A stretch of 64,000 nucleotides of DNA from Loxodes magnus (lineage: Eukaryota > Ciliophora > Karyorelictea > Loxodida > Loxodidae). Each line of letters opens with the position of its first letter. The stretch's first letter is position 1. A program made the position numbers and the translations under genes. Below are positions 2,289 to 63,389 of this stretch, piece by piece. Location of the stretch: positions 868,001 through 932,000 of the forward strand of contig CAMPDV010000061.1 in assembly GCA_946699065.1 (NCBI GenBank). Reading direction: 5' to 3'. The notes beneath the pieces were generated by a model that made no database searches, was not told where the DNA came from, and saw nothing but the letters and a program-made list of their open reading frames with translations.

Positions 2289-3059
2289 ATGGAATAATCT
2301 ATTCGCCTTTCCAAAAACCAAATTAAGAACGCAAAAAGGAAAGCTGCGAAACTAACGCAGAAACAATAACAAGAAGAAGATAAATCAAGTTCCTCATCTG
2401 AAGGAAAAGTTATAATTGGAACAATAGAGACGAATCCAGTAAAAGTACAAAAATAATCAGAAATCTAAATATAAATTGACTAAATGAAAACAATAATACA
2501 AAATTATTAGGAAACAATTTACAATCAAGGGGAAAAAATAAGAGAACTAATGAATACTATCGAAGATTAAAACAACGAGCTACTAATAATAAGACGACAA
2601 TTGATTTAAAATAATTTAGTCACGGAATAGTAACTATATGAATAATCTCAATCGAATTTTAAGCAAGAACAAAATATGATTATTGAAAAAATTTCTACAT
2701 AAACAAACATCCAAGAAAAATAGAATGACGAAAAGATTAATATAGAATTACTCCAAAGAATCGATTAACTTGAAAAAAAAGTATTTCTGAAGAGATTCAA
2801 GAAAAGACCAATCAAAAATTGCTATTATTGCAAATCAAAGTGACACCTATTACAAAATTGCGATCAGTGGAGATAAATTTAGATGAAAGAACAACAAAGA
2901 ACGTTAAGAATGCTTAGCAGACTCTGAATCACCGAAACGGGAATTTACAAGAAGAAGATATTCTTATAAAAGACAGAAGATTCTCAGTGGTTCCATCCAC
3001 AAAAAAAAATGGCGTGGTATCCATCCACGCTAAAAAAATGGTAGCAAAAACCTGGTTGA
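2289..3059 (+). CDS. gag/ORF1-like protein with CCHC zinc knuckle
   Basis: This intact 256-codon frame (Gln=TAA/TAG, Trp=TGA) starts at an ATG directly after a run of nine A. The order is a basic N-terminus, an acidic Ser-rich patch (about residues 33-45), a long Gln-rich coiled coil (about 60-165), then a zinc knuckle CYYCKSKWHLLQNC (CX2CX4HX4C). The Trp before its His is encoded by TGA. The tail contains GIYKKK, as in the other window members. The TGA taken as stop lies inside a short hairpin (CCTGG...CCAGG). Such proteins usually bind retroelement RNA (family knowledge). No polymerase frame follows, so this is either a non-autonomous element or a domesticated gene. Confidence 0.7.
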
Positions 3060-3983: not shown

Positions 3984-4064
3984 CGACACCAGCAGGATTT
4001 GAACCTGCGCGGGAGAACCCAACAGATTTCAAGTCTGTCGCCTTAACCACTCGGCCATAGTGTC
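3984..4064 (-). tRNA. tRNA-Ser(UGA), copy 1
   Basis: An 81-nt class II tRNA with a long variable arm (GGGTTCTCCCGC). The anticodon stem ACAGA/TCTGT holds the loop CTTGAAA, giving anticodon TGA (reads UCA, serine). The acceptor GACACTA pairs with TGGTGTC with one G-T pair. The body is identical to four other copies in this window. Its 5' flank, read on the minus strand, contains AGTGTTAAGTGTTTATGTAAG, which is shared with the other copies. Confidence 0.95.
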
Positions 4065-4491: not shown

Positions 4492-6907
4492 TCAATATAT
4501 GCTAACTTGTTTTTAAATTGAAAGAACTAAGTAAAATAATGAGAAAGTACTTAAGTCTAAATTTTATTTCAGTTTAGATAAAACATAATAGACAACATGG
4601 TCTAAATAGTATATTTATTTAATGATATCCTTCAGTAAGATCTCTTATATTAGTGACTTATTCTTATAATCCTTTTACATTTTCTCTGGATTATAGCTTT
4701 AAGTAGTAAACTGTAAGATCAGTATGATAGATCTTTAAGTTTATTATGAAGTTGCTTGTAGAAGTTTTATTATGATTGAATGAAGATCGAAATAGAAGTC
4801 GCTATATACTTAAAAATCATATGATATGGAAGGCCATTTCTTTAAATTTGGGATTTGAGTGATTAAATAATTCAATAGTGTAATCCGGCATCCAAATAAT
4901 ACATTTAGAAGAACCTTAAAAAAGAAACTTTTTCTAATATTTTATAATAATCGAACTATGCATTAACTATATCTAAAGATATAAAGGATTTAAGTATAAA
5001 GACTACCTTACTATTTAATCATTAATGGCTTAAGCTTAAAGGAACGTCTTAAATAAAATTAAAAGGTATTTGAGTTTGAGTTTTCATCTCAGATATCTAA
5101 ACTTAAATTAAAATCTAGTTATTTTCTATTTTTGAAAAAGAAGATTATTTGAATTTATTTAAAATGCTAACTTAGCTATTCAGTAAACTATTCAGATATT
5201 TAGGTTCGAAGAATATTTAGACTTCTTAAGCTTCTATAAATTGGGTATATCTAACCTTATTAGTCCTTTATCAAGAAAGCATTTTCAGTTAATCTTTAAT
5301 TTTTGAATAAGTTCAAATGCTTTAAGCTTCTACAACTAGTAATGATTTAGATAACATGCTCATCTTATAAATCACATCCCTACAATTCCAATTTTTTGAG
5401 TCTTTTGATCTATACTATTTCGCTTATTTAAGGAGTACTCAAGTTATTAAAGTTACTTAAAATAAGATTTTCTAGCTAGATATTAGTTGATTTAATAGCA
5501 TTAAAAGTTTCCCCTTAAATTCCTTCTATGGCTGATAGCTTGATAGTCTTTAGTTTACTACATCCTTTAAAAATCGCTTATAAGTTTTCGTTTGAAAGAG
5601 ATAAATTTGAAAGCGATAGTTCTTAAATATTTAATCCGAAGCTTATAATTTATTGCTAAGTTACGCTTGAAATACTTTTTTGAAATTCTAAGCTTAAAGA
5701 TCTAAGATCAGGATAATTAGTCAGTAAAAATTACAAATTTTCTATGCTGAGTTCTTCACAAAAAGTTAGCCTTATTTTCTCAAATTATTTATTCTAACTT
5801 GGGAAAAAGTTCTATAAAGGCTAACTTGAGAAATTAGCTCTTTTTACTTCTAACTCCTTTAACTTATTTGATTTCAACTTATCTTAAATCTAACTCTGTG
5901 ATTCTTAAGCCCATACACATAATCTACTTAGATTAGGACAATGATCGACTAGTAGTTCCATTTGCCAACACTCATTAATATCAATCTCTTCTATGTATTA
6001 TCCTTTACGCTTTAAATACTTTATAACTTAATCAAAATCAATAGAATTGCTTTGAATCTTAATAACTCTCAAATTTAAATTCGAGCAATAATCGTTTAAG
6101 AAGCTTCCACTCAATTCCCCTTCATAAGAGAAAATAGTAATTTCCTGTACTTTTTCTAGCTTATTCATAAATTACAAATCTTAGTCTTTTTAAATGATTT
6201 AGTTATAAAACTCTAGTGTTTAAAGGTTTTGGAAGCAAGCTATATTTTATAAAATTTAACTGTCCAGTTCGTAAAACATGCTTAATTTAAGTTTAGTTAG
6301 TTTTGAAGAGTTTTTCTGTTGGTCTTATAAGTATTTCTTATATTTAACCATTTAAACTTTCTGAAATTCTATTTTCTAATGTTATAGATAGAGCATTCAA
6401 TTCAGAATGGGCTATTTATTTTAAAGTTCATGTAATTTTACTTTTAAGATAACCTTCATCTGAGTATTCTTTAAGGGATAGTTTATCAAAGGTATAAATA
6501 AAAGTTCTGAAAAACTAGTTTGCTTATTACAATCTACAAATATCTCGTTTCTTCAAGAATGAAACTATTTATTTACTGATATAGGCTAAGCTTAAAACAT
6601 TTTACTATATGTTTTTATACTTTTTGTTTGCTCTACTATCTGATTATTTACCTTCTTCACAATAAGTAATATCTCTTTTTAGTGGTATCTTATCACTGTC
6701 TTCTCTTTGTTACAAATTTAAAGTTCCTTAGTTTCTGTTAACTTTAATTTGCCTATCTTATTAAAGTTTCGATTCAGCGTTAGTTTGAGCATTTTCCTCT
6801 TATTGTACTTTTTACTACTAAAGTTATAGTTCTTTAGTTTAGCTAGCTTCCTAGCTATTTTCTTATTATTTAGAATCCTCTTTTGATTCATTTCTGCAGC
6901 TTTACAT
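4492..6907 (-). pseudogene. LRR gene A: F-box-like leucine-rich-repeat protein, one frameshift
   Basis: A member of the four-gene LRR family. It starts at 6907 (MQSCRNESKEDSKQQ), has a Gln-rich leader, then the F-box-like core SFLKKRDICRLQQANQFF near residue 115. Degenerate LRRs follow, ending with the family block LTENAFLIKDQQGQIYPIY. Homology to genes B and C shows a one-base phase change at about 6325-6350: upstream codons start at coordinates equal to 1 mod 3, downstream ones at 0 mod 3. TGA encodes conserved Trp (KITWTLKQIAHSE, DIWDEN). After the last block the frame stays open to a TGA at 4492. How much of that tail is protein is unclear. It may be a recent pseudogene or carry an assembly indel. 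The LRR array suggests a protein-binding or ubiquitin-ligase adaptor role (inference). Confidence 0.65.
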
Positions 6908-7135: not shown

Positions 7136-7216
7136 GACACTATGGCCGAGTGGTTAAGGCGACAGACTTGAAATCTGTTGGGTTCTCCCGCGCAGGTTCA
7201 AATCCTGCTGGTGTCG
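7136..7216 (+). tRNA. tRNA-Ser(UGA), copy 2
   Basis: An 81-nt class II tRNA identical in sequence to copy 1, with anticodon TGA in loop CTTGAAA. It is divergent from LRR gene A. The T arm GCAGGTTCAAATCC supplies the B box. A short T-run follows (GTTTTTACTTTTTTT), which fits polymerase III termination. Confidence 0.95.
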
Positions 7217-8769: not shown

Positions 8770-8850
8770 CGACACCAGCAGGATTTGAACCTGCGCGGGA
8801 GAACCCAACAGATTTCAAGTCTGTCGCCTTAACCACTCGGCCATAGTGTC
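8770..8850 (-). tRNA. tRNA-Ser(UGA), copy 3
   Basis: An 81-nt tRNA identical to the other copies, with anticodon TGA. It is divergent from LRR gene B, whose start codon lies about 370 bp away. The upstream flank again contains the GTTTATATAAGACAC-type element. Confidence 0.95.
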
Positions 8851-9217: not shown

Positions 9218-11242
9218 ATGTAGGAGAATAGAAATCCTTCTTTAGAAAAGGAAATTTAACTTCATGGTGAAAATACAATTTTAAGCTAATTTGAAGAGAA
9301 AAAAATTGATAATTTAGTGGTAAATGTACTTAATAAAGTATAAGCAGAAGAAGCTTAAGAATATAACCCACAAAACTTAAAACTATAAGAACATATGAAA
9401 ATAAACTAAAGCTAAGTATCAAATGGAAGTAATATTGTTCAAGCTAACTTAGAACAAAAAGTAGAAGTGTAAAATTTATAAAAGCAAGAGAAAAAAAACG
9501 AAGATTTTGATTAGAGCATTTTTAAAAAAGCTTATATTGCATCTTAAATATTTTAGTTCTTAAACTAACGAGATATAAGTAACTTGTAATAGACAAATAA
9601 ATTCTTTAAGAACTTTACTTACACCTTCGATAAAGTGCAAATTAAAGAATACTCAACCAATTAAGAATATAATAGTAGCAAAATGAAATGAACTTTAAAT
9701 CAAATAGGACATTCTGAAATAAAATCTCTTTTTATAACCCTTTAGATTCACACCTCTTAAAGATAAAGTAAATAAATAATCGAATAATTAAACTAAATCT
9801 TATAAGAAAATTGCAGTTAAAGTTAAAAAAAATCTAGCTTAAGTAGATTGACTAAACTCTAAATAAGAACATTCTGTGAAATAGATACTTTAGGACTTTA
9901 AAATTTAGTTTTATTCCAAAACTTATAAAAATTAGAACTTCATAATTTAGCTATAAGCGATCAAGATTTACACTTTTTGAGTAAATTAGAAAAACTAGAA
10001 GCAGTGAGCATTATTTAATTAAATAGAAAATTTAAAGGAAGCTTTTTATATGATTACTGCTTAAATTTAAATTTAAGAGCTATAAAATTAACTTCTTAAT
10101 AGCTAAATTTAGAAAGTATTGTAAAATACTTACAAATAAAAGGTTAAGTCATAGAAGAAATTGATATAAATGGAAACTGCTTATTAGAATTAATGATTGA
10201 TTATGTCCCTAATTTAAAAAAGTTCTTTGTTATTGAGTTTGATTAAAAAAGCGAAATTTTACAAAAAGTGAACTGAAACTAAATAAAAAATTTAGAAATT
10301 TGGAATTAAAATTTTTCAAACTAGGCTCATTAGAAGATAATCTCCACTAAGGTTTAATAATTAGAAATTTTAAAAATTTCAACCTGCGAAGAGTTTAAAG
10401 ATGAGCTTCTAATCTCCTTACTAAAGAACTCTCCTAATTTAAAAGTGATTCAATTAGAGCTTTAGAAAGAAATTACAAACTAATCTCTTCGATAAATAGG
10501 AAATTACTGCTTGAATCTCTAAGAATTATATCTTTAAGGATTGAATATTAGCAATGAAGCTTTATAAGTAATTTTTTCTAATTGTACAAAGATAAAATAT
10601 CTTTAGCTTAATTACATTAAAGGAATAGCAATAGAAAGCTTCTAAGCGATTTAATAAAATAATTACTTGCTAGAAAACCTAATAATGAGAGACCTAGAGA
10701 CACTCGATATTTCAGTAATAAGAGAAATAATAAAGATAAAAAGACTAAAAAGGTTAGAGATTTCAAAATGCTCATTAAAAAATAAAGAAACTGTTTAGAT
10801 AGTTACTAGTTGCAGTAACTTAAAGTCCTTAGTTTTATCTCGAAATTAAGAAATAACAGAAGAAGCCTTTCCTATAAGCGACTAATAAGGTAACCTATAT
10901 CCCATTTGAGGAAGGTTAAAAATACTAAATATAAGATATACTAAAGTGAGTGAATTGTTTGCTAGCTAACTAAGCTGAAAGCTAAAGAGATTATTAATAG
11001 AATACAATTTCAAAAGCACAAATTAAAATAATAATTTAAGCAATATCAGCTGAGAAAAAATCGAGATAACTATAAATTAACTTTATTTAAGGTAATCTTT
11101 CTAAGTATTTATATAAAAGTCTTCCTTGAAATATTAATATTCTAAAACATTTTTCTCATTAAAATAAAATATAAAAGAAAAGATATCGAGTAAAGAGGGT
11201 CATTTGAATCAAATTGTCTTATTTTTATTGAAATAATAATGA
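9218..11242 (+). CDS. LRR gene B: F-box-like leucine-rich-repeat protein
   Basis: An intact 674-residue frame in the ciliate code. It starts MQENRNPSLEKEIQLHGEN and has a Gln/Lys-rich leader. The F-box-like segment QIFQFLNQRDISNLQQTNKF lies near residues 112-131, followed by about 450 residues of RNI/AMN1-style LRRs (for example SNLKSLVLSRNQEITEEAF). TGA encodes Trp at positions shared with paralogues (MKWTLNQIGHSEI, ISWEKIEI). The chosen stop is TAA TAA TGA. However, the same frame stays open beyond it, with coding-like sequence from 11354 onward, so this TGA could be another Trp. The function is probably a substrate adaptor or scaffold (inference). No enzymatic motif is visible. It is paired divergently with tRNA-Ser copy 3. 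Confidence 0.8.
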
Positions 11243-12747: not shown

Positions 12748-14715
12748 TCATTCAAAAAAAATTTATTTTATATATAACAATTTGAAAATAGAAGATATGG
12801 GCAGCACTCTAATCATTTGAATATAAAGCCATTCAAAAGTTAGATTCCTGAAATTATAATTTAAATGAAATTAATATAATAAAGTTGATATAATGTTTAT
12901 GTCTAAATATAGCTTTATAATTGAAAAAATGATTTTAAAATATTACCCTTTAAGTATAAACTTAAAAATATTATAATAAAGCTTCATTTTATTTTTTAAT
13001 AATTAATATATTAATTTTATAAAAGTGAAATTTATCATTTCTCAATCAAGTCATAAATCAAGTTCTATCTAATCTCTATCCTGAAAATCATATTCTATTT
13101 GTAATTTTTTGAATTGTTTACTTAGTTGAGCAACAAATGGTTCTTCAACTTAAGTACCTATAATATTTAAGTATCTTAACTTTTTATAAATAGGGTATAC
13201 TTAGCCTTGTTAATTGATAATAGGAAAAGCGTTTTCTGTTATTTCAGTATTTTCAAACAAGTTCAAAAAATTTAAATGACAACAATTAATAATTATTTGC
13301 CTAACACCTTCATCCTTTAGATCACTTTCCTTAAACTCTAACTCTTTTAAGTTTTTTATCTCTACTATTTCCTAAATTATTTCATTATTGGAAGAATATA
13401 GAAAGTTACCTAGTATTAAGATTTCTAGCAGTTTATTGTTCTATTAAATTGTCTTAAAAGTTTAGACCGAAAGATTTTTTATAAAAATAAGCATTATTAG
13501 TTTAAGCTTAATACAGGCTTTAAAGATGGTTTGTAAAGTTTCATTTTTAATATCTAAATCTGAGAGAGACAATTACTGGATATTAGCACAGTAATTTCCT
13601 ATTTACACCAAAGAAATATCAGAAATGTTTAGTAAGTTTAGGTTAAGTGATTTCAAATTAGGAGTGTGCTTTAGTAAGGTAGACAAATTTTCGTCGTTAA
13701 ATTTTTCGCATCTATATATTTCTATGTTTTCCACTTAGTCGTTTTAGTTAGATAAAAAACTTTGAAAGTCTCAACAAGAGAACAAAGCGTTTCACAATAC
13801 AAAATTTTTTATTCTGTTCCATTAAAATTTTGAAAGAATTTGACTTTTTATTAATCCTGAAGTTAAATAAAGCTTCTATAAGTTAGGACAAAAGTCAATT
13901 ATTTTATCGAAATATTTGTTCTCATTGATATTGATTTCTTCTAAATTTTTTCCTTTAACTTGAAGATATTTCCCTATAATCTCATAATCGATTGTATCAC
14001 TATGTATTTTTAAAATTTTTAAACTTTAACTCTAGCAGTAATCATTAAGAAAGCTCCCATTAATTTAGCTCTCATAAGTACAAGTAATTTTAATTCCCTA
14101 TAATTTTTCTAGTTTATTTAAGAAATTTAAGTTTTTGTCTTCTCTTATACTAACATCTAAAAGAACCAAAAATTGTAGGTTTGTGAATAATGAAATGCTT
14201 TATAAGATCATATTATCTATATCATAAAATAGACTTATTTTAAACTTAACCAATTATGAAAACTTTTACTTTTGGTATTTTTATTCCAGTTTTTTTTAAA
14301 TATTTTTATTTACTTTTTCTTATATTTTTTAGCATAATTTTTCTGATATTTGCTCTTCTAAAATTATAGATAAATATTTAACTTCAGAATGTCCTATTTG
14401 TTATAAAGTTCATTATAGTTTGCTTTTTATATAATCATCATTAGTGGAATAATCTCTTATTGACAATGTATCAAAAATATAAATGAAGTATCTAAAAAAT
14501 TTGCTCGTTTGCTGTAAGTGGCAAATATCTCGTTTGCTTAAGAATTTAAATATTATCTATGTTATGTAGGCTTTAATTCAAATATTTTCTTTCGCATTTT
14601 TTTATTTTTTAACTAATTTTTCTTCCAGTGATTTGTATTTTTCATCTTAATTTAAATTTCTTTTAAGTGAACGAATTTCATTTTCTTCTTATATGCTTGC
14701 CTTTTCATTATCCAT
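12748..14715 (-). CDS. LRR gene C: F-box-like leucine-rich-repeat protein
   Basis: This 655-codon frame starts MDNEKASIQEENEIRSLKRN. The F-box-like core IIFKFLSKRDICHLQQTSKF lies near residues 58-77, and LRRs run to the family block ITENAFPIINQQGQVYPIY. Trp is encoded by TGA at homologous positions (LQWTLQQIGHSEV, LDLWLDWEMINF). The frame is continuous by phase (14715 to the TGA at 12750). The last roughly 100 residues are AT-rich and poorly conserved, so the true end may be earlier. The gene faces away from tRNA-Ser copy 4, at a larger distance (1.26 kb) than in the other pairs. It converges on LRR gene B. The exact start is uncertain, because no other in-frame ATG is close upstream. Confidence 0.75.
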
Positions 14716-15970
14716 ACCATCTTCCAAATGATTTTTTTATTTCGTTTTTATTTTAATTTTTTTTAATTTTTCTAGCTCATTTGGTATATTTTATGAAATT
14801 ATTTCTTTTTAGATTAAGTTTTAATTATCATAAACTTATTCTTCGACAATTTATTGGTTTATTTCCTCCTTATATGCTTACTCACTTCTACTCCCTTTCA
14901 TTTTTTTTAATTTTATTTTATTTAAATAAAGTGCCTTTTAACGACCTAATTAAAAAAAGACTTTAATTTTTTTATTTAAATTTATATAATAATATTTAAA
15001 ATATTACTATATAAATGAAAAATATCGGAATAACGATATTACTTAAATAATATAAATATTAATTAAATTACGAAGATCATATTATAATATCTACAGGATA
15101 TTTAAAAATTAAATAGCTCTCACCAAAATTGTATTTTTATTCATCACCCAAATATAAATCTGACTTATATACTAATTATTTATTTATAAATAGCTTTAAT
15201 TTTGTTAATTTAAATATAATAATTTTATATCAATATCTGTTCTAAATTTTAACTATTTTAAATATTCTAGCAACTATTTTAGATTTTGCTACAAAAGTAA
15301 ATTCTTTTTAATTATTTTGCTTTATCAATTATCTCTCTATATTAATTATTTTAATATTAGAATTAAGATTTTAAATTTTATATTGTGAAGGTTTATTTTT
15401 TAATTTCATTTAAAATATTAAACTAAATTTAATTTTTTTGATTTATGATAATTTTCTTACTGTCGTATACTAACATTTAATGATTATTCGATATTTTATC
15501 AATTTATAATATATAAAAAATTAGAATTTTAAAATACAAATTTTACTCTATTTTGTTTTATTTTTTATGCTTTGAAGTATTTATTGTTAAAATAAGGGAT
15601 ACTAATAATAGTTAAAAAATTAGAGAAAATTTAAATAGTTTTGAATAGATAGAATTTTAATATTTTTAAACTATTTCTAAATTAATTTCTAATATTTGAT
15701 TAAATATATTATAATCAATATATTATTCACTTTTTTAATAGTGTATTTCTATCTTTTTAAACTAAATTTTTTTATATTAATTCTAGATTTTTTTTTATGT
15801 AGTACACTATTTTGAAAATTATGGATAATTGAGATTGATAGAAATTTTATTTCATGGTTTTCTAAATTTAATTTAAATTATTTAAGTTGATTCTTCTTTA
15901 TTTTATGAATTATTTATATATCAGATCCTAGATTTTATGTATTTAAGGGATGTGTTAAGTGTTAATATAA
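14716..15970. other. AT-rich spacer upstream of LRR gene C and tRNA-Ser copy 4
   Basis: About 1.25 kb of very AT-rich DNA with no supported gene. The 60 bp just before the tRNA (from about 15912) match, in reverse complement, the 5' flank of tRNA-Ser copy 5 almost perfectly (TATATCAGATCCTAGATTTT and following). This marks a shared duplicated segment. Confidence 0.45.
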
Positions 15971-16051
15971 GACACTATGGCCGAGTGGTTAAGGCGACAG
16001 ACTTGAAATCTGTTGGGTTCTCCCGCGCAGGTTCAAATCCTGCTGGTGTCG
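15971..16051 (+). tRNA. tRNA-Ser(UGA), copy 4
   Basis: An 81-nt class II tRNA identical to the other four copies, with anticodon TGA. It lies upstream of LRR gene C in divergent orientation. Its 5' flank contains GGGATGTGTTAAGTGTTAAT just before the mature end. Confidence 0.95.
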
Positions 16052-21698: not shown

Positions 21699-21779
21699 CG
21701 ACACCAGCAGGATTTGAACCTGCGCGGGAGAACCCAACAGATTTCAAGTCTGTCGCCTTAACCACTCGGCCATAGTGTC
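21699..21779 (-). tRNA. tRNA-Ser(UGA), copy 5
   Basis: An 81-nt tRNA identical to the other copies, divergent from LRR gene D (277 bp to its ATG). Its 5' flank to about 21835 is the near-perfect counterpart of the flank of copy 4, which indicates duplication of a segment larger than the tRNA. Confidence 0.95.
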
Positions 21780-22055: not shown

Positions 22056-24374
22056 ATGAAATAAGATTGTTATCTATTATCTAGTTAGAAAAATAACCTT
22101 CATGGAGAAAATTAAATTCTTGCTTAATCTAAGAATTCTGATGGTTATAAGATTGCTATTTGTAAAAGTAAATAAGTAGCAGAGAAAAATAAAGCAAATT
22201 AGTATCAGAGAAATTAAATTTAAAAGAAAGATAAAAGAAATAGATAAGAATAGGAAGATAGTATTAGTTTACCTCTAAAAAGAAATTCGAAGCAAATCAA
22301 AAAAGAAAGAAACTGGGAAAATAAAGAAAATAAGAAAATAAAAACCAGTTCAGAAGGAATCTGAACGAAAGTTTATATATCCCAACTAATATTTGAGTTT
22401 TTAACCAAGCGAGATATTTGCCGACTTTAGTAAGTTAGCAAGTACTTTAAAAGATTCATTTACAGTTTTGATTCTTTAAATATAAAAGTAGAATCAGTAT
22501 GCTAAGATAATTTTAAGAATAAAACGGAATGAATGCTAAAGCAGTTTATACATTCAAATGTAAAGTCCATAAATCTGTATTTCAAAGTTTGGATATTATA
22601 AAAATAGTGTGATCAAATCTAAGAAAAGTTCAATAGATGCATATTAGCAAGAAGGAAGTTGAACTAGCAGTCTTATAGTTTCTTAAAACTAACTAAACTA
22701 AAGATAGATTTATTTTTAGAAATAAAGACTTAAACTTTGAAGAATATCTCTTTATTCAAAAACCTTTAAACGTTATAACTCTAGAATATAAAGATAAAAA
22801 ACGACTAAGATCTACAATTTATCAGTGGATTGGAGAAGCTATAAGTAATTTATATATCTTCTTTCGAGTGTGAGCTGAAAGGAAGTTTTCTATATGATTA
22901 CTGCCAACTTTTAAATTTGAAGGTTATAAAACTAGTGAGTAAGGAAATCAGAAATGAATATATCATACGATATTTAAAAATAAAAGGACGTTAAATAGAA
23001 GAAATTACAATTAATGATAACTATTAATTAGACTAAATAGTTGAGTTTTGTCCTAACTTGAAGAAAGTATTACTTGAGGCTGCCAGACTAAGACAGAATA
23101 TTCTAGAGAAAATAGATATCCAAAAAATGAAAGAAATCATTGTAAAAAACACGTTTTTCTCAAAAGAAGCTTTTTAGAAATTCTTTTCTAATTAATGTAC
23201 TTAATTGGAAAAAGTTGTACTATCAGATTGTAGAGAACTCAATGATGAAAATCTAACTTCATTGTTTAAGAATTCGCCCAACTTAAAATAATTAAAGCTT
23301 GAATATTTAAATAATATCTCTAGTATATCAATGAATAGCATAGGAGAAAACTGCTTAAATATCTAAAGTCTTACTCTTTCAAATTTATGCATTTCAAACA
23401 TAACTCTTAGAGAAGTTTTCAAAAGTTGTGCTAAACTAAAGAAAATAAAGCTTAGATTAATAAACGGTATTTCGAAATAAGTTTTTAAAACAATTAAAAA
23501 AACTAACAAATAGCTGGTGAATTTAAATCTGGATAGTCTTAGTAAAATTAATATTACTAGAGTGATAAAATAAGTCCAGGAGATTAAAAGCTTGCAGAAA
23601 TTATCAATTAAAGGATGCAATTTATAAGATGAAAATGTGGCTTAAATTGTTGCTTGCTTCAATCATTTAAAGTATTTGAGTATAGCCTATAATTGAGATA
23701 TAACTGAAGAAGGGTTTCCAATTTATGACAACTAAGGCTAAATCTTTCCTTTTTATAGAAACTTGAAGCTTTTAAACATATTTGATACTAATGTAAGCGA
23801 CTTGTTTGCTGAATAATTGAGCTAGCAGTTTAAGAGATTGTAAATAGAGAAAGAATATAGCAATAAAAATGAGATAAGCTTTGATTTAGACAAATGAGAA
23901 CAAATTTAAGATTTAAATTTCACTTTAAACTTCTTTATTATTATCTTAGTTTAAAAAGCATTAAATGTAAAAGCTGTATGTCTCTAAAATAAGTAGATAT
24001 ATTTAGTAAGTTGCACAAGATTAGAAAGGACTAAATTTAATTATTAAACAAGAAGTGATTAATAAGCAAAATAAAATAGTTAGCAATAGAGTAAAAAAGA
24101 AGCAACTAATAGAAAGGCTTATTCATTAAATAGAGGAAGGATTAATATATTTTATTAATTGATATCCTTTTAAATCATCTTAAACATAATTACAGAAGAG
24201 TATACTTTATTATAGAGTTGCTAATACTTAATCTATTCAATTATTACTCTATTAAATCTCTTTAAAATCTTAATAATTTTTAGCTTAAAATAAATTAAGA
24301 GACTCATGATAAGCTTTATTAGCAGTATATTAAAAGATAAAAATAAAAGCTTTGTAAGATATATTTAGATATGA
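22056..24374 (+). CDS. LRR gene D: F-box-like leucine-rich-repeat protein
   Basis: It starts MKQDCYLLSSQKNNLHGENQ and shares the LHGEN motif with gene B. The F-box-like core LIFEFLTKRDICRLQQVSKY lies near residues 111-130. LRRs end in the family block ITEEGFPIYDNQGQIFPFY. TGA encodes Trp (GIWTKV, TEWMLKQFIHS, YNWDITEE, DKWEQIQ). No TGA in phase was met before 24372. Compared with gene B this leaves an extra C-terminal tail of about 100 residues after 24050 that is AT-rich. A stop nearer 24050 with an indel is possible. The gene pairs divergently with tRNA-Ser copy 5. Confidence 0.75.
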
Positions 24375-30679: not shown

Positions 30680-31472
30680 TTTAGGGATTTCCAATCCCGT
30701 CAGGAATACAGCAGTTCATGCTCCCTGCTGTTAAATATAAAAGTTCAGGTTGCCCAATTTTAGCGAGATTGGAAACTCGGATTTTTGCAGGTTTTCCCTC
30801 CTTTAACTTGCCTTGGTTCCATCTTAATCTTGCATATTGAAATATCCGGGTTGCAATAAATTCTTTTCATTCTTGCTTCTTCTTTCTCTTCTTTTGTTGT
30901 TCTTTTATCCAATATTTTCTTTATTTCTATTAGAATTTCTAACACTTCCGATAAAAATGTCATACGCATATACAACAGAAACATTTCTTTTTTATTTTTA
31001 ATTATTTTCCTTGATTTTTTGCTCTTTCTAGGCTTCGATTTCCATTTGTATAGCTCCAGTTTCGCTTTACTCTTTCTTAAAAGTTTACAATTTCTCTTCT
31101 ACTTTTCCGAGTCTGTTATCCAGTTCAGTCTGCCTCTAAAGCTAATTTTAGGATTCGTTAGTCTGACTTTGTGAGATATTCCAAAAGGCGCTAAGATCTC
31201 TTTCCTAGGACATAAGTCTTGACTCAATTCCTTCTGCTAGGTCTAGCTTTGCCATCAGCTTATCATTGTCCTTCTTCAATCTCTTGACCTCTTCCTGGAG
31301 GTTCAGTACCACTTTGACGAGCTACTCCATGCTCATCTGGCCAGAAGGGTTGAACTCTGATACCTCCTGGTGGAGAACAGACTTCATCTGTTTCCTCGGT
31401 TTCTTGCTTCCTCCCTTCCTTTTTGGTTTAGGAAGAGGTGGTATAGAAGCCTGACTTGAAACCTTCAACCAT
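30680..31472 (-). pseudogene. gag/ORF1-like copy (MVEGF subfamily), two frameshifts
   Basis: It starts MVEGFKSGFYTTSSQTKKEG after A7. The coiled-coil signature MSMEQLVKVVLNLQEEVKRL is in another phase (indel at about 31390-31440). The perfect knuckle CFCCICVWHFYRKC is back in the first phase (second indel just before 30990). The Trp before the knuckle His is TGA. The 3' end has inverted-repeat segments (GGGATTTCCAATCCC) and then (TAA)n. It is closely related to the copies at 19.0 and 44.3 kb. Confidence 0.65.
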
Positions 31473-36130: not shown

Positions 36131-36726
36131 TTTTGAGACTTTTTTTAAATTAATATGTGACAATTCAAATAAAGACGATGTATCATTAATAAATAATGTT
36201 ATGTAATGCCAACTTTTCTTATTAAGTTGTTTAGTATCACATTAAAAAAGGATCAACAAAGCTTCAATTAATTTTAAATAATATAATTTTGTACATGCTA
36301 GTTTAGGATTTTTTAATTTAAATACCAAATTAAATTAAAATTTTAATTATTATTGATAATTTAAGAATAAATATTTAGGATTTTTATGAATAATTTATTA
36401 ACTTTATATTTTTAATTATTAACAAAATTAAGAATAATTTTAAAAATTATTATTTTGCTTTCTACTTCAATATTTTAAAATCTATTAAATGCGAAAATAT
36501 TTAAATTTATTGAACAGAAATATCTTAAAAATCTAAATGAAAAATATAAAATTTATATTTATTTAATTACTTATCTTTTCATACTTCTAGTAAAAATCAG
36601 AATCAATTCATTTTAATTTTTAATTGTTTTGTAATAAAATCTAAAATTTTTTAATTTTTTAATCTTTTTTAGAATACTATTTAAAAAAGATATTTTAGAT
36701 TACAATCATTTTATTAATTAATTTCA
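36131..36726. other. AT-rich intergenic
   Basis: Very AT-rich spacer with homopolymer runs. Nothing was recognised. Confidence 0.4.
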
Positions 36727-37021
36727 ACTAAAAAAATTTTTGGAAGAAAACTCCTTTCCGATTGCACGACGACGCTCTCTTTTTATGGAATAACGGGGAT
36801 ATCCTGTCGTGCTCCAGGCACAGCTGCTAGGGAGCTCCATCGCTATGAGCAGCCAGGCTTCAAGCCCCTACCAAGAGCGGATAATCTCAAAGACAGCGTT
36901 CCTTTCAGAAAACGACTCAGACCAGGGACTTTCTCAGCGACAGGAAAGGAACTTGTTCCTAGCCATAAAACCAGAAAGTTTAGTTACGAAGGCCATTTCA
37001 GTTCCCACCATCTTTTCAATT
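36727..37021 (-). mobile_element. SINE-like repeat, family 1, copy b
   Basis: This is a reverse-complement copy of the 290-bp family 1 element, nearly identical to the copy at 47.1 kb over most of its length. It ends at CCCACCATCTTTTC, the complement of the A-run-ATGGTGGG start. The 96-residue standard-code frame across it is not conserved in copy a and is unlikely to be a gene. Confidence 0.75.
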
Positions 37022-40082: not shown

Positions 40083-41774
40083 ATGAGTCACATCATTTCT
40101 TTTGAAGATTTGTCATTTGAACAAATGATTGGACAAGGTGGATATGGAAAAGTTTATAAAGGAAAATTAAATTAAAGTGTTGAAGTAGCTATAAAAAAGT
40201 TATATAAGAAAAAGAAAGAAGAAATAAATGACTTGGAAAAATAAGAATAAGAACTTAAAGTTATGCTTTAGATGCGGCATACTAATATTGTTAAAATTTA
40301 TGGATTCTGCCCTAATCCTTTATGTCTAGTAATGGAGCTTTTACCTCATTCACTTTTTAATTACCTAGACAGTGTATAAGAAATTCCTTGAGATGTGAGA
40401 ATTCAAATTAGCCTCGATATAATTGCTGGGTTAAAAAATATTCATGATAATTAGTTTCTTCATAGAGATCTAAAAAGTAAAAATATTCTTCTTAATGAAT
40501 AATTAAGAGCCAAAATTGGTGATTTTGGCCTAGCAGATTTGAAAAAAAATTTCACACAATCGAAAAAAAATAAGAAAGAAGGAACTACTAGATGAATGGC
40601 TCCAGAGTTATTTTAAGCAGGACCAGAATACAGTTGCTAATCGGATATCTACGCTCTAGGAATAACTTTATGAGAGATTGCAGCTAGAACATGACCTTTT
40701 TAAGGTGTTGATGAAGAAGATTTAATTGAAAGTATAAAGGACGGGGAAAGGCCTTAAAAACCAGAAGATTGTCCTGATAAATTTTGGTTTCTAATCTAAG
40801 AATGCTGAAAGTAAAAACCCAAATAAAGAATTCGCCTTGAAGTTCTATATTTAAAACTTGAAGATGTGAAAAACTAACTTGGATAAGGAAATTACCTAGA
40901 AGAATTAGAAGAAGAAGAAGAAGAGTAAGAGTAAGAGTTAGCTAATTAGTAAAATACATATAGAATCCCATAAAAAATTAAATTTATTTCAACTTTTAAA
41001 AGAGATTCCAGTATAAAAATAGACTATAATCTAAAAAGAAATTAATTAGTTACTTAAGAAACTCCTACAAATAAAACTGATTATAATGATACCTAGATCG
41101 AGTAAATTGGAAATTAGAGCCTAATTATTTCTGGAGGTTGGCAAGATATTTAAGATGTTTTCCAAATTTATGATGATGGTAAAATTTAAACTTTTAATAT
41201 GCTAAACAAAAGATATTGTCACAGAACTATTTTCGACATTTAGAATAGAGTATATATTATATCGGGAACTAACCAAGTTAAATGCGAATTTTTTGATTTC
41301 CAAACTTCACAGTTCTAAAACCTAGCAGATATTCCTTAAATCACAAGATAATTTGGAGCTTTTTTAAAATAAGAAGATATTTATATTACAGGAGGATTCT
41401 GAGATTCTAATTTTTTAAGGGATATTTAAATTTTTAACACTTAATAAAATTCATGGAAGTTTCATCATTCGACACTTCCTGAAGCAGCAAATACAACTGC
41501 GGCATTTCTTAAAGAGAAATAAACATCAATTATCTACTATAATGGTGCATTGGATTTTAACAAGAATACTTTAGTGTTTGATTTAAAAAAGATAGAAACA
41601 CATGGAAATTAGTTTTAAACAATGCGTAATGTTTTTACATAGCCAGTTGTAATTAAAGACAGAGTTTACTAATATAATTTTTCGAATGATTTATACCTAT
41701 ACGATTTTTAAAACGCTTAGTGGGAAATAATAGGATAATTTGAAAAAGCACATCATCTCAATACACAGTAGTGA
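40083..41774 (+). CDS. TKL-like protein kinase with C-terminal Kelch repeats
   Basis: An intact 563-residue frame. Kinase domain, about residues 8-275: Gly loop IGQGGYGKVYKG, VAIKKL lysine, catalytic loop HRDLKSKNILL, DFGLAD, and activation segment TTRWMAPEL followed by SDIYALGITLWEIAAR. The last two are typical of the tyrosine-kinase-like group, so activity on Ser/Thr is expected. An acidic linker (about 278-300) leads to a Kelch-type beta-propeller (about 335-560) with repeated GG-type blades (LIISGGW, YIISGT, YITGGFWD). Trp in WMAPEL, LWEIA and TWPFQG is TGA, and Gln is often TAA/TAG. The stop chosen is TAG TGA. The frame is open again to a TGA at 41922, so a short C-terminal extension is possible. 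A paralogue lies 3.3 kb downstream. Confidence 0.88.
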
Positions 41775-42239
41775 GTGATACGATCTTTTAAGACAATTTA
41801 ACAATTTTTTTTATAACTTAAACTAGTTCTATTAGTTATATAAAATCAATAATATAGAAACGAAAGAAAAAATCGCTTTTAGAATTTATTAAACTTAACT
41901 TATTGTTAGATGAAAAAAAAATGATAATTCATTATTAAATTTTTGTTATATTTAAAATACTAAAAATAAAAGGTTAAAATTTAGATTAAAAAGTAATTTT
42001 ATTTTTTACTTTTTTTTCTCTTTTTAATACAATAAAAATAAATGGCTTAATTTTTAGTTATACTATCTAATTTGTTTAAATGAAAATTTTTTAAAACCTT
42101 TCTGAATACTAAAATATTTTTATTTATTTAGGAATTAAATTTTTTATAAATTACTAAAAGGTTTTGAATTTGTCTTTAGGGTAAATTGGTAGAATATAAT
42201 TATAGTTAATAGAATTAGTTAACTATTAATAATTTAAAA
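41775..42239. other. AT-rich 3' flank of the kinase gene
   Basis: AT-rich sequence. The kinase phase stays open to 41924, then nothing recognisable follows. Confidence 0.35.
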
Positions 42240-45074: not shown

Positions 45075-46834
45075 ATGTATTCGTCAAACGAATAAAGCAT
45101 AATTATCCCTTAAAATAAAATAAGGACAGAAAAAAAAATTGGCAAAAGCTAGCTCTGGAAGGTTTATCAAGGAAAGTGGAACTAAGATTAAGTAATTATT
45201 AAAAAATTTTAATAGTTCGAACTTTCAGAAAAGACTGCTATATAATTTTAAGCAAATTTTACTGCCATAATACAAATGCGACATGCCAATATAGTTTAAT
45301 ATTTAGGATATTGTCCATCTCCTCTTTAAATAGTAATTGAGTATATACCTACAACTTTATAATAATTGTTGTACAGCTAACAAGAAATGTCTTAAAAATA
45401 GAAAATCTAATTAAGCCTTGAAATAACTTAGGGATTAAAATATTCTCACGATTTAAATATTATTCACAAGAACCTAAAAAGCACTAATATCTTAGTAGAT
45501 GATTAAATGCATGCCAAAATAAGTGATTTTGGACTTTATGAAGTAAATTTATGCTCCGAGTCTATAAGTATGAGCAAATAGAAAGAAATTAGATGAAAGG
45601 CTCCTGAATTGTTTGGTACTTCTCCTCAAATTAGTAAATAATCTGACATTTATGCACTTGGAATAATTCTATGGGAAATTGCTGCTAGAAAATTGCCATA
45701 TAATGGCGATAGTAACCAATAAATTAAATAAAAAGTTAGATAAGGAGACAGAGAATGCTTTCCTGAAGACTGTCCAAGCGAATTTTGAGATTTAATATAA
45801 TAATGTTGAGTATAAAAGCCATAGTGAAGAATAGATCTGGATACTCTAAAACAAAAATTGATGTAAATAAATTCCGAAAACATGTGATTAACAAAAAAAA
45901 GTGCACAACAAAAAATAGTAACAAATTAATAAGAAACTTCTGGGGAAATAATAGGTACTACAGAAGAAGAATCTAAAAGCAGTTTTTTAGGAGCAGAAGA
46001 TACTTTTGATGAAACAGCTATACAAATTTAGTTTCAATAACAAATAGATAACTTTTAATCCGAAATAAAATAAATATAAACTTTTATATTTAGTTCGTCT
46101 TTTAAGAAAACTTATGATATAAAAACTAATTCATTTTTAAAATAGGAAATAAACATAAAATAAACTGATTTTAATGATACTCAAATAGAGCAAATTGGGA
46201 ATGATTATATGATTATATGATTATATCTGGAGGTTTATATGCCCGAAAGTATAGATTTACAATTCTTAAAAATAACGAAATCCAAAATTTATAAATGCGC
46301 AGCAATAGATTTGTTCACAGAACTGTATACAATTATTTAGACAAAGTTTATATTATTTCTGGAGCTAAAACTGACAAATGCGAAGTATATGATTTGCAGA
46401 TAGAGAAGTTTGACTAAATTACTGAAATATAGTAAAGAACTTAATAGTTTGGAGCTTTTTACACTGAAAAAGATATTTATGTTACTGGAGGAATTTTTGA
46501 CTAGATTTTTCTAAACTTAATTCAGACTTACGATATTTAGCTAGATGAATGAATTATATAATAGTACTATCTTCCAGAGCCTGCAAATACGACATCTGCT
46601 TTTTTATATGATAAAAGTGGTGCAATAATATACTATAATGGAGGTAGGTAATAAAATAAAAATACTTTATTTTTTGATTTCAAATCTATCACAAATCATG
46701 GAAACTAATTTACAACAGACCGAAGTTCTTTTACACAGCCTATAGTCATTCAAGAAAGGGTTTTTTAATTTAACGACAGTACTCAACTATATAGTTACGA
46801 TTTTAGAAAAAAAGAATGGGAAAGAATGGAATGA
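45075..46834 (+). pseudogene. pseudokinase-Kelch paralogue with an 8-bp repeat frameshift
   Basis: Paralogue of the kinase at 40.1 kb with the same kinase plus Kelch layout. The Gly loop is lost (IGKSQLWKVYQG), and the catalytic HRD is HKN (IIHKNLKSTNILV), while DFG is kept (KISDFGLYEV) along with RWKAPEL and SDIYALGIILWEIAAR. Phosphotransfer is therefore unlikely, and it may act as a pseudokinase. At 46201-46224 the unit ATGATTAT occurs three times in tandem. With two units the frame reads IGNDYMIISGG as in the paralogue. The third shifts the Kelch part into another phase, which continues to EWERME-TGA (46832). It is either a young pseudogene or a repeat-length error or polymorphism. Nothing suggests programmed frameshifting. 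Confidence 0.75.
46201..46224 (+). repeat. three tandem 8-bp units ATGATTAT in a coding frame
   Basis: Three perfect copies. Removing one unit restores the reading frame that homology with the kinase-Kelch paralogue predicts. Confidence 0.9.
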
Positions 46835-47130: not shown

Positions 47131-47430
47131 TTGAAAAAATGGTGGGAGCTGAGAATGACCTTCGTCATCACACTTTCTGGTTTTATGGCTAGGAACAAGT
47201 TCCTTTCCTGTCGCTGAGAAAGTCCCTGGTCTGAGTCGTTTTCTGAAAGGAACGCTGTCTTTGAGATTATCCGCTCTTGGTAGGAGCTTGAAGCCTGGCT
47301 GCTCATAGCGATGGAGCTCCCTAGCAGCTTTGCCTGGAGCACAACAGGATATCCCCGTTATTCCATAAAAAGAGAGCGTTGGGTCGTGCAATCGGAAAGG
47401 TATTTTCGGTTCAAAAACTTTTTTAGTTGA
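47131..47430 (+). mobile_element. SINE-like repeat, family 1, copy c
   Basis: It starts TTGAAAAAATGGTGGGAGCT and has the same internal landmarks as copies a and b, nearly identical to b. Two short standard-code minus-strand frames (47080-47391) are not maintained in copy a. Confidence 0.75.
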
Positions 47431-47749
47431 ATTTAAAAAAAACAGAAGCTTTTATATAATCAATCTGAAAAAATAATTTATTGCTGTCTAATAATATAAT
47501 ATTTTTAACTTTCTATCTAAAATAAAGAAATATAAGAAAAAAAATGTAATAAGATCATTAAATTTACCTAAATTATTAAAATTTCTTTCAATTACCGTTA
47601 GAAATTTATTTTTAAGATAATTAAATATATTTACCAAACCTTAGAGCTAATTAATTATTAAATAGATATACAATAGATAAATTAATATTTTTCATTTCCT
47701 GTTAATATTTTAATTGAGTTAAATTTGTTTTTCTTATTTTCTCTTAAAT
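47431..47749. other. AT-rich spacer
   Basis: AT-rich sequence between two SINE-like elements. Nothing was recognised. Confidence 0.4.
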
Positions 47750-48176
47750 AAATAAATAAATAAAAGGATTATAGAGCACGTAGCACCTCATCGGCGTGCA
47801 TCACTTTCAATATTAATATTTAATATTAAGAAAAATATTCTCATGTTTATTGTTAAAATTCTAGAGGTTTGATGAATCATGTAAGCTTCTCTAAAAGGGG
47901 AATCTTCTTATTAAAAATTATTCTTAAATCTTGAGTCAAATGCTTCAGTCTTCTTGAATAAGGTCCAAATAAGAATTAGTTATTAAGTCGGTAATTAGAA
48001 GGCCCGTCAGTCAAACTTTCAAACTGCTAGAGAGAACCCACGGAGTAAGTTAGGCTTTTCTCAGCAGAGCTTATCCACCCTTCCCCGTGGTGGCATCTAG
48101 TGCGAGATTATTCACAATGCAGTATACACTGCACCAGATTACCTACTAATTTTTCTGACGCGGCCGACATGCATTT
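47750..48176 (-). mobile_element. SINE-like repeat, family 3, copy 1
   Basis: About 425 bp. Read on the minus strand it starts near GCATGTCGGCCGCGTCAG and carries GTGCAGTATACTGCA-type palindromes and GCCACCACGGGGAAGGGTGG. It ends with the shared hairpin (47768-47805 on plus) and a (TTTA)n tail. A closely similar full copy is at 60.96-61.39 kb and a diverged partial copy is at 56.19-56.35 kb, all in the same orientation. Confidence 0.75.
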
Positions 48177-59445: not shown

Positions 59446-60318
59446 TCATGAACTGAATTTTTTACATCTTATCTACTTGTAGATGGGTTTATTAAACTGG
59501 TTTTCCTTCCAGCTTTGCAACACAGGTCTTTAGTTGCCTTGAGGGTAGCTTAATGCATTCTAAGTTTTAATTTTATAAATATATCCATTAGGGCTGCAAT
59601 ACATTTTGTCTAACCTTTCTTATTAAAGTCTTGCTCTAGCCCTTTGTGCTGCTAGGTAGTTCTGCTATAGTCGATATTACTTATTTCAATATTGCTATTG
59701 AACCTACCTGAATTTTTTGCACTGGCGAAACAAATGTCAGATGTTGCCGCATTGGAAACATTTCTTAACAGGTCTTTTTGTAGCCTACTTCTGAACATTG
59801 TGGCCGAGAGGCTGAACCGGTTCAATTTCCATCATAACTTACCTCACAGCTGGCACTGGATCATTTTAAATCTTCAGTACTGAGACCGTTTTCTAAATGT
59901 CGTCGATCCTGCCATTTGTTATTTTTTATTAACGGGACTACTCTTCAGTCATATTTCACATAACCTGTAGCTCCCGTTCGGAGTTGATAGCTCGTTGATC
60001 AGAAAGTTGAGCCTCCTTCTCAGCATAAACTCTGAGCTATTGCAGCTCCTATTTAAGTTTGGCAACCTCCTTGACTAAGTTCAAAGCCAACTATTTGTAG
60101 TCTATTTCTTCCTCTTCTTCAAGAAGGACTTAGTCAATGGCAAAGGAGCGAACTTACGTTTCTTATTATTCCTTAGGTTGCTCTTAGACCACTGAGGTAC
60201 TAGGTAAGTGCTAGATTCTTTTGCTTGGTTAAATTTGTACATTTTACTAGCCACTCTTCTACTCCTCCTTCTTGGCGGGAGCAGGATAAAAGCCTTTTCT
60301 TAATCCGGAACTTTACAT
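59446..60318 (-). CDS. gag/ORF1-like protein with perfect CCHC knuckle, intact
   Basis: A 290-residue frame starting MQSSGLRKGFYPAPAKKEEQ, after eight A and a G. GFYPAPAKKEE parallels GFYTTSAKKEK of the MVEGF subfamily. A coiled coil spans about residues 75-125 (LNLVKEVAKLKQELQQLRVY). The zinc knuckle is CFQCGNIWHLFRQC (CX2CX4HX4C) with the Trp encoded by TGA, followed by NGYIYKIKTQ. It is GC-richer than the other copies and uses many non-TAA Gln codons, so it may be the youngest or a selected copy. It ends at a TGA (59448). No pol gene was seen. Confidence 0.75.
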
Positions 60319-60716: not shown

Positions 60717-60959
60717 AGTTTTTTAAATTCTTTAAAGAGAAATAGTTTTTTATAACAAGTTTAATTAAAAAAACGACTTTATTATGTTTAAAAATATTTA
60801 TTTAAATTAGTTAAAAAAGCCAAAATATTCAATTATATTTTAACTTTTTAAATCATAAAGCAGATCTTTTCAAAGTATAATATATATCTTTTAAAATAAA
60901 GTATCAATTAAAAAAAAATTTAATTCTCATATCTTAATTTAGTATATTTGATTGATTGA
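60717..60959. other. AT-rich spacer
   Basis: Short AT-rich interval between two oppositely oriented SINE-like elements. Nothing was recognised. Confidence 0.4.
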
Positions 60960-61388
60960 TTTATAAATAAATAAATAAAAATGATTATAGAGCGTGTAGC
61001 ACCTCATCGGCGTGCATCACTTTCAATATTAATATTTAATATTAAGAAAAATGTTCTCATGTTTATTGTTAAAATTCTAGAGGTTTGATGAGTCAAGTCA
61101 GCTCCTCCAAATGGGGAATCTTCTTATTAAAAATTATTCTTAAATCTTAAGTCAAATGCTTCAGTCTTCTTGAATAAGGTCCAAATAAAAATTAGTTATT
61201 AAGTCGGTAATTAGAAGGCCCGTCAGTCAAACTTTCATACGGCAAGAGAGAACCCTCGGGGTAAGCTAGGCATGTCTCAACAGAGCTTATACACCCTTCC
61301 CCGTGGTGACATCTAGTGCCAGATTACTCACAATGCAGTATACACTGCACTAGATTACCTACTAATTTTTCTGACACGGCCAACATTC
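60960..61388 (-). mobile_element. SINE-like repeat, family 3, copy 2
   Basis: A full-length copy closely similar to 47.75-48.18 kb through body, hairpin (60984-61020) and (TTTA)n tail. Differences are scattered substitutions (for example CGCGGCC versus CACGGCC), which suggests recent amplification. Confidence 0.75.
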
Positions 61389-62049
61389 ATTTTATTTATA
61401 TTATAATAAGCAATACAAATATATAAAAATAATAATAATTTTATACTTTTAATTAATTTTTAGTTTGTCTTACTAAAATACAAATTTATTTTCGATAAAA
61501 AATTTTTAAAAATTAGCATTAATAAAAAATATTAAAAGGAGGGATATTATGGTATTCAAGCATCATTAATTTTAAATTACATATTTCTTATTAAATTAAT
61601 TGTAGATGATTAAGTTGATTATTTTGAAAACATAAATGAATGTTAATTTATAACTTTAAGAAATATTATTTTTTAATTTATTACTTTACTTTCTAAAATT
61701 TTTTCCTCAAAATGATTTAAATTAATTTCTTTTCAAAATTGTATATTTATTTATCATCTAATGAAGTCTTCGCTTATTCAAATTTACAATCTTTCACTAA
61801 TATCTAATTCTTTCGTTTTAAATAGCATATTAAAAATTTGAAATTAATAATTGCTTTATTTTTATATTTTAAGAGCTAGCTATTTTGTTCTAACAAAATA
61901 GAGAAGCTTGAAGAAGAAAATATTTAAAAAGAGCTAATTTAATTTTTTAAAGCTATTACTTATATATTTTTAACTTATCTTCTAGTATAATTTTTTATAA
62001 TGAAATACTCGTTAACGATTTTAATAAATTATACTACTCGCATTTGTAG
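61389..62049. other. AT-rich upstream region of the nucleotidyltransferase gene
   Basis: About 660 bp of AT-rich leader. Nothing was recognised. Confidence 0.4.
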
Positions 62050-62826
62050 ATGGAATAAGTAGAACTAACTCCATAGTTTAAGTAGGAAGTTACATAGTTA
62101 ATACAAAATAAATTTTCTAAGGTTAAGGTGATTCATATTGCTCTTCTTGGCTCTTCTGGAAAGGGATTAAGATCGATAGGATCAGACTTTGATATTTAGG
62201 TAATGACAATGGATTAAGTTGATAACTATATCTTAGGAAGATCTTTTGAAAATAAAAAAGTAAAACTTAATTATAATGAAACGTAAATGGAAGGAATAGC
62301 TTTCGATTTAAGATTCGCTCTTGATAAAATAGCAGAGTCTAATCCAACTTTAATGGAAATTTTGAATGCTCCTGCAATTTATCAAACTGAGTTGAGTACC
62401 TAAGTTCTTGACTTAATAAGATAGTGCTTTCATCCAAAAACTATTCTTATAGCCCATTAAGGTCTGATAAAATAAAATATCAAAAAGAAGATAAATTAAG
62501 AGAAAAAATGCCCAGCTAAAATAGCAGCTGAGTGTATTTATTTAATTTTGCAAATAAGGAGCATCATTCAAAATTAAATTCCTGACTATAACATTAATGA
62601 TTTGATGCTTAAGTACTCATAAGATAATTTCGACTTATTTAATGAAGTGATTTAAGCAAGAAAATAAGATAAAAATCAAGAAATTCAGTTAAAGCCTGAG
62701 CTATTCCAAATTATCACTGATATTGCAAACCTGAAAAAAATCAACTTTAATTGGCATAGAGAAGAAGAATATATTTTAAGAGAAAAACTTGATGAATTGC
62801 TTTTGAGAAACGTAGAAAATTAGTGA
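62050..62826 (+). CDS. RlaP-like predicted nucleotidyltransferase
   Basis: A 258-residue frame starting MEQVELTPQFKQEVTQLIQN. Residues 27-50 hold IALLGSSGKGLRSIGSDFDI, the GS...SDxD signature of polymerase-beta-type nucleotidyltransferases. ESNPTLMEILNAPAIY at about residues 97-112 is the helix typical of the RlaP/PF10127 family (family knowledge, recalled and not searched). A helical region with CPAKIAAECIYLILQIRSII follows. The expected activity is nucleotidyl transfer, with substrate unknown. The stop used is TAG TGA at 62824. If that TGA is Trp, the frame continues coding-like (WYEIQTKLNDQQNQ) to a TGA at 63025. No internal TGA occurs before 62824. Confidence 0.75.
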
Positions 62827-63389
62827 TATGAGATTCAGACAAAATTAAATGATTAATAAAATTAAAAAATAATTACCTTTGTTTTGCTTCTAAGCAGATT
62901 AACTTTAAATAAATCGTTTTAGTTTAAACATTTATAGCAGTTATTAAATGATAGGCTGCATTAGTTACAATAAACAAAGGATATAATAATAAATAAATAA
63001 TAATTGAATAATAAGAAATATAATTGATATATAAAAAGGAATTTAAACTAAGTAAGCATTTTTTATATTTTGCATATAAAATTATATAAAAAGAAAGCTT
63101 AAATGAAAATTGATTGCTTAGATAGTATGGTTTAAAAATAGATTTAATCAACTTAGACATAAATCTATAACATTTTTATATAAATAATTAACTTAATTTT
63201 TAGCTTTAATTTCCTTTTCTAGTTATCATATTAAAAATTATGTTCTATTGAAAAATATTAAATTTTAATCTAAGATTTACTGATTTTCAGTTTTAAATTT
63301 TAGATTTTTAAGTTAAATAATATTTTATTATATCAAGCTTTTATTCAATCTATCTTTTAAAGTTGAAAAATATTATATTTAAATATGGA
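62827..63389. other. 3' flank of the nucleotidyltransferase gene
   Basis: The plus-strand frame stays open to 63027 and may be a C-terminal extension. A 78-residue hydrophobic standard-code frame on the minus strand (62924-63160) is its complement and probably chance. The rest is AT-rich. Confidence 0.35.

Follow-up and report, generated by a model that had tools for sequence, protein, structure and literature searches.

The closest described system is the karyorelict nuclear code as given for Loxodes magnus. A macronuclear assembly of 706 Mbp has been reported for this species, and karyorelicts including Loxodes are assigned NCBI translation table 27, in which UGA is the only stop codon and also encodes Trp when positioned at a sufficient distance upstream of the poly(A) tail (PMC11441545). 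According to the same report, the 3' UTRs of L. magnus are very short (median, 41 bp), and UGA and UAA are depleted in about 20 codons before the stop, while UAG is not (PMC11441545). In Parduczia sp., a karyorelict of a different genus, UAA and UAG encode Gln and UGA is both Trp and stop (PMC4967479). Swart et al. (2016) described UGA as having three meanings in Condylostoma and Parduczia, namely Trp, stop and selenocysteine. They proposed that these codons are translated by default and that eRF1 prevails where the end of the transcript is near (PMC4967479).

Here we analyzed a 64-kb stretch of DNA (the window), positions 868001-932000 of contig C61 in an assembly of 705,730,643 bases in 7843 contigs. 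The size of this assembly matches the 706 Mbp reported for L. magnus, and we assign the species from this size together with the code. With a probability of about 0.95, the window is macronuclear DNA of L. magnus that follows table 27, with TAA and TAG as Gln and with TGA as Trp inside a gene and as stop near the mRNA 3' end. The L. magnus code has the same assignments (PMC11441545), and we found no difference from the window; the Parduczia code likewise matches. The window resembles Condylostoma magnum, for which three sense codons and a context-dependent stop are described (PMC4967479), in its three sense codons. The nonstop code of Blastocrithidia shares with the window UGA as Trp and the reassignment of all three codons, but UAR is Glu there (PMC12153298), whereas Gln is favored here. 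The table 27 code has already been published, very probably for this very assembly, and is therefore not new. The features are collected in Table 1.

Table 1. Genes and single codons of the 64-kb window
Feature	Position	Strand	Remarks
F-box/LRR copy F1	5089..6498	-	Stretch read, true start not meant; ends at TGA 5089-5091; LRR match only
F-box/LRR copy F2	9302..11053	+	Stretch read; contains four TGAs in frame, of which the last lies 25 codons upstream of the stop TGA 11051-11053; LRR match only
F-box/LRR copy F3	13051..14799	-	Stretch read; ends at TGA 13051-13053; another in-frame TGA follows three codons later
F-box/LRR copy F4	22101..23897	+	Stretch read; ends at TGA 23895-23897
Gene 1	40083..41774	+	Tyrosine-kinase-like domain and kelch repeats; six predicted sense TGAs; last codon TGA as presumed stop
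TGA of RWMAPEL	40593..40595	+	Residue 171 of gene 1; conserved Trp before APE; W in 3/4 distinct solved kinases, Y in IRAK4
TGA of LWEIA	40671..40673	+	Residue 197 of gene 1; W in 2/4 solved kinases (the other two have Y and L); gene 2 has TGG here
TGA of ECWKQKP	40806..40808	+	Conserved Trp; W in 3/3 kinases covered; TGA also in gene 2
TGA, presumed stop of gene 1	41772..41774	+	TAG before it; nearest sense TGA 124 codons upstream; GC 0.28 before, 0.20 after
Gene 2	45075..46834	+	Paralogue of gene 1, about 5 kb downstream; TGA read as Trp; presumed stop TGA 46832-46834
RlaP-like nucleotidyltransferase gene	62050..62826	+	TAA and TAG read as Gln; sense TGA absent; presumed stop is the TGA met first in frame, 62824-62826

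Sense meanings of TAA, TAG and TGA in the window

When TAA and TAG were translated as Gln and TGA as Trp, the frame of gene 1 ran from 40083 for 563 codons to 41771 and was followed by TGA. This frame is open solely with TAA, TAG and TGA all read as sense. The stretch 40083-41924 contains 59 codons that are stops in table 11, and TGA accounts for residues 103, 171, 197, 204, 242, 440, 564 (41772-41774) and 614. Pfam searches of gene 1 returned PK_Tyr_Ser-Thr (E 4.5e-61, residues 11-256) and Kelch_6 (E 2.5e-13).

We then aligned gene 1 with solved kinases after masking the three codons as X, so that no codon meaning was presupposed. The masked translation of 40083-41774 still matched solved kinases (best E, 1.5e-40). 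The residues opposite TGA were counted by eye from the printed alignments, with one row per distinct protein and with repeat domains and second constructs of one protein left out. Opposite the five TGAs of the gene 1 kinase domain, W was found in 10 of 19 cells (EGFR, Src-Abl ancestor, roco4 and IRAK4), and opposite four TGAs of masked gene 2 it was found in 5 of 12 cells (EGFR, Src-Abl ancestor and CTR1). Three of the nine TGA sites had no W opposite (gene 1 residue 204 and P0002 residues 268 and 281); at the remaining kinase TGA sites the non-W cells were S, A, Y, Y, L and I, and one gene 2 cell appeared to be two positions out of alignment. These results agree with the sequence-only reading, which had placed TGA at the Trp positions of RWMAPEL and LWEIA (Table 1).

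In a seven-kinase alignment, W was opposite TGA in 2 of 60 cells, and the five kinases other than genes 1 and 2 had Y, L, K, P or E at most TGA columns of the two genes. Since these five presumably belong to other kinase groups, the masked alignments with solved kinases are the fitting comparison.

To obtain a codon table from the window itself, masked six-frame translations were compared among themselves, again with no code presupposed. The table held 3363 aligned codon pairs, with one coding frame per gene, from four F-box/LRR genes, two kinase-kelch genes and the gag-like segments. An earlier table of 5377 pairs, which took in off-frame alignments (R opposite TGA in 25 of 128), was superseded by it. 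Opposite TGA (24 sites, 39 cells) we found TGA in 12 cells, W in 6, TAA in 4, and F, Y and K in 3 each; TGG faced TGA in 6 of 24 cells. W was thus enriched 43-fold over background opposite TGA, a figure that comes from six cells, with cells within one family not independent: 2 of 27 in the F-box/LRR genes, 3 of 11 in the kinases and 1 of 1 in the gag-like segments.

Q was the most enriched sense residue opposite TAA (30 of 363, 3.2-fold) and also opposite TAG (18 of 122, 5.6-fold); for comparison, Q was enriched 7.5-fold opposite CAA and 11.5-fold opposite CAG in the same table. E reached 0.9-fold opposite TAA and 1.6-fold opposite TAG, and Glu was dropped as a meaning of TAR on these values. 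Tyr for TAR and Cys for TGA were also dropped, as Y was outside the top five enriched residues for TAA or TAG and C outside the top five for TGA. The W columns ruled out TGA as stop alone. At the level of sequence comparison, the predicted sense meanings, Gln for TAA and TAG and Trp for TGA, are demonstrated in the window. The earlier proposal that all three stop codons are used as sense was therefore upheld by the open kinase-kelch frame, the masked alignments and the paralogue codon table.

The internal stops might instead reflect decay, in pseudogenes or through assembly errors, rather than a code. We consider this extremely improbable, given that TAA, TAG and TGA stand at W and Q columns above chance, and that gene 1 carries its 59 such codons in one frame with clear domains. 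Furthermore, 136 kinase places were scored in this genome out of 5592 first-look candidates, and all but one (135) carry TAA, TAG or TGA at least once. The observation that fits decay or error comes from gene 2, which is 40% identical to gene 1 over the first part and 49% over the kelch part. At 46201-46224 it contains three copies of the 8-base unit ATGATTAT, and the similarity frame changes at the same place. The threefold ATGATTAT with its frame change could reflect expansion of the repeat, decay into a pseudogene or an error of the assembly.

TGA at the ends of genes

Similarity among F1 to F4 extended nearly up to a TGA in all four genes, and gene 1 and gene 2 also end at TGA (Table 1). 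For the RlaP-like gene, the stop is probably the TGA at 62824-62826. The sequence-only reading had named 62050-63027 as the second stretch in which to look for the terminating TGA. This stretch has no in-frame TGA before 62824-62826 and does not itself show TGA as Trp, unless that TGA is read through. Two CDPK-like genes on another contig (L001 and L003, contig C71), each of which we read as a kinase domain plus EF hands (the EF hands by eye), both end at TGA. TGA is thus also the predicted stop in F1 to F4, in gene 2 and in the two CDPK-like genes. The claim that genes end around TGA is supported by the paralogy of F1 to F4 and by the CDPK-like genes elsewhere.

In the mechanism taken from print, termination at UGA would be set by nearness to the poly(A) tail. 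On our reading, tRNA-Trp would outcompete eRF1 at an internal UGA, and near the poly(A) tail eRF1 would win.

The stop was taken as the TGA where similarity ends, so that the seven window ends cannot serve as a blinded test; the starts were not fixed. Over the final 20 codons of each of the seven window genes, with gene 2 counted from 46217 only, TGA was found in 0 of 140 codons versus 19 of 3118 further up (Fisher p = 1), the ends having been picked by TGA. TAA was found in 4 of 140 versus 180 of 3118 (p = 0.19), and TAG in 4 of 140 versus 57 of 3118 (p = 0.33). These counts go in the same direction as the printed ones for L. magnus, and none is significant. The GC content was lower past six of the seven ends, the exception being F1, after which it rose.

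We also considered a code of the Condylostoma type (NCBI table 28), in which all three codons would be sense and stop, and TAA and TAG would also end genes in the window. In two of the seven window genes, TAG is the codon directly before the final TGA (41769-41774 in gene 1 and 62821-62826 in the RlaP-like gene); either codon could terminate there, so TAG itself could be the stop of these two genes. However, the 17 codons before the terminal TGA contain neither TAA nor TAG in gene 2 and F4, where the nearest TAA is 22 and 18 codons back, respectively, and the same holds for the two CDPK-like genes as printed. While UAA and UAG are also stops in C. magnum (PMC4967479), at least four ends here are TGA with the last 17 codons free of TAA and TAG. 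Together with the description of UGA as the only stop in L. magnus (PMC11441545), this makes a Condylostoma-type code highly improbable, and table 27 remains the preferred assignment.

Under table 27, the UAG before the final UGA would be an ordinary Gln codon. That it is instead part of the stop signal, either as a UAG-UGA pair or by itself terminating, is highly improbable. If true, it would mean that a second, position-dependent stop is kept beside UGA in this ciliate.

The codon table and the gene ends agree with the earlier proposal of a karyorelict resembling Loxodes in which TGA has both meanings, Trp and stop; the further proposal that context decides which TGA terminates follows the printed account. 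The analysis supports the view that the sequence alone had led to the right code and the right type of organism.

Other genes, tRNAs and repeats

The LRR genes of the sequence-only reading were recovered, as Pfam gave an LRR match in F1 to F4 (4 of 4); F3 and F4 also had a weak F-box match. An LRR pattern search of the window gave no match, the LRR genes having come from Pfam. The gag-like genes stood in part. Three CCHC zinc-knuckle motifs were found, at 2820-2861 (+), 30942-30983 (-) and 59719-59760 (-), and the segments contributed one TGA cell, which was W; in the frame used, however, Pfam matched 0 of 5 gag-like segments. The codon before His is TGA in all three CCHC motifs. A codon-usage gene finder chose a frame that differed from the similarity or CCHC frame in three of the five gag-like segments, and its segments were therefore not taken as genes. 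The RING gene was not recovered: a search of the six frames of the window with a C3HC4-type pattern, a kind of search that can miss, gave no match.

Pfam searches of seven further stretches, each in a single frame and not in six, gave no match (0 of 7). The masked RlaP-like gene had no significant match in the PDB (best E, 0.24), and no relative turned up when viral contigs were searched with P0001.

Seven tRNA genes were found in the 64-kb window, one for Glu, five for Ser and one for Ile, with no tRNA-Trp or tRNA-Gln among them, the Loxodes tRNA-Trp(CCA) with its 4-bp anticodon stem included. The five tRNA-Ser(TGA) genes are identical in sequence (3984-4064 (-), 7136-7216 (+), 8770-8850 (-), 15971-16051 (+) and 21699-21779 (-)), and each is preceded by a similar AT-rich motif (approximately taagtgttaatataa). 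They are interspersed with the F-box/LRR copies F1 to F4, an arrangement that would fit joint duplication of tRNA and gene. Two dispersed repeat pairs were also observed, 36691-36996 with 47155-47472 and 47718-48176 with 60937-61392. Parts of the former pair have a GC content of about 0.5, compared with 24% for the window.

How the ribosome discriminates between sense and stop is put to a natural test in an organism that sets aside no codon for stop. This case has already been made in print for the karyorelict lineage, and the window offers a single clean example.
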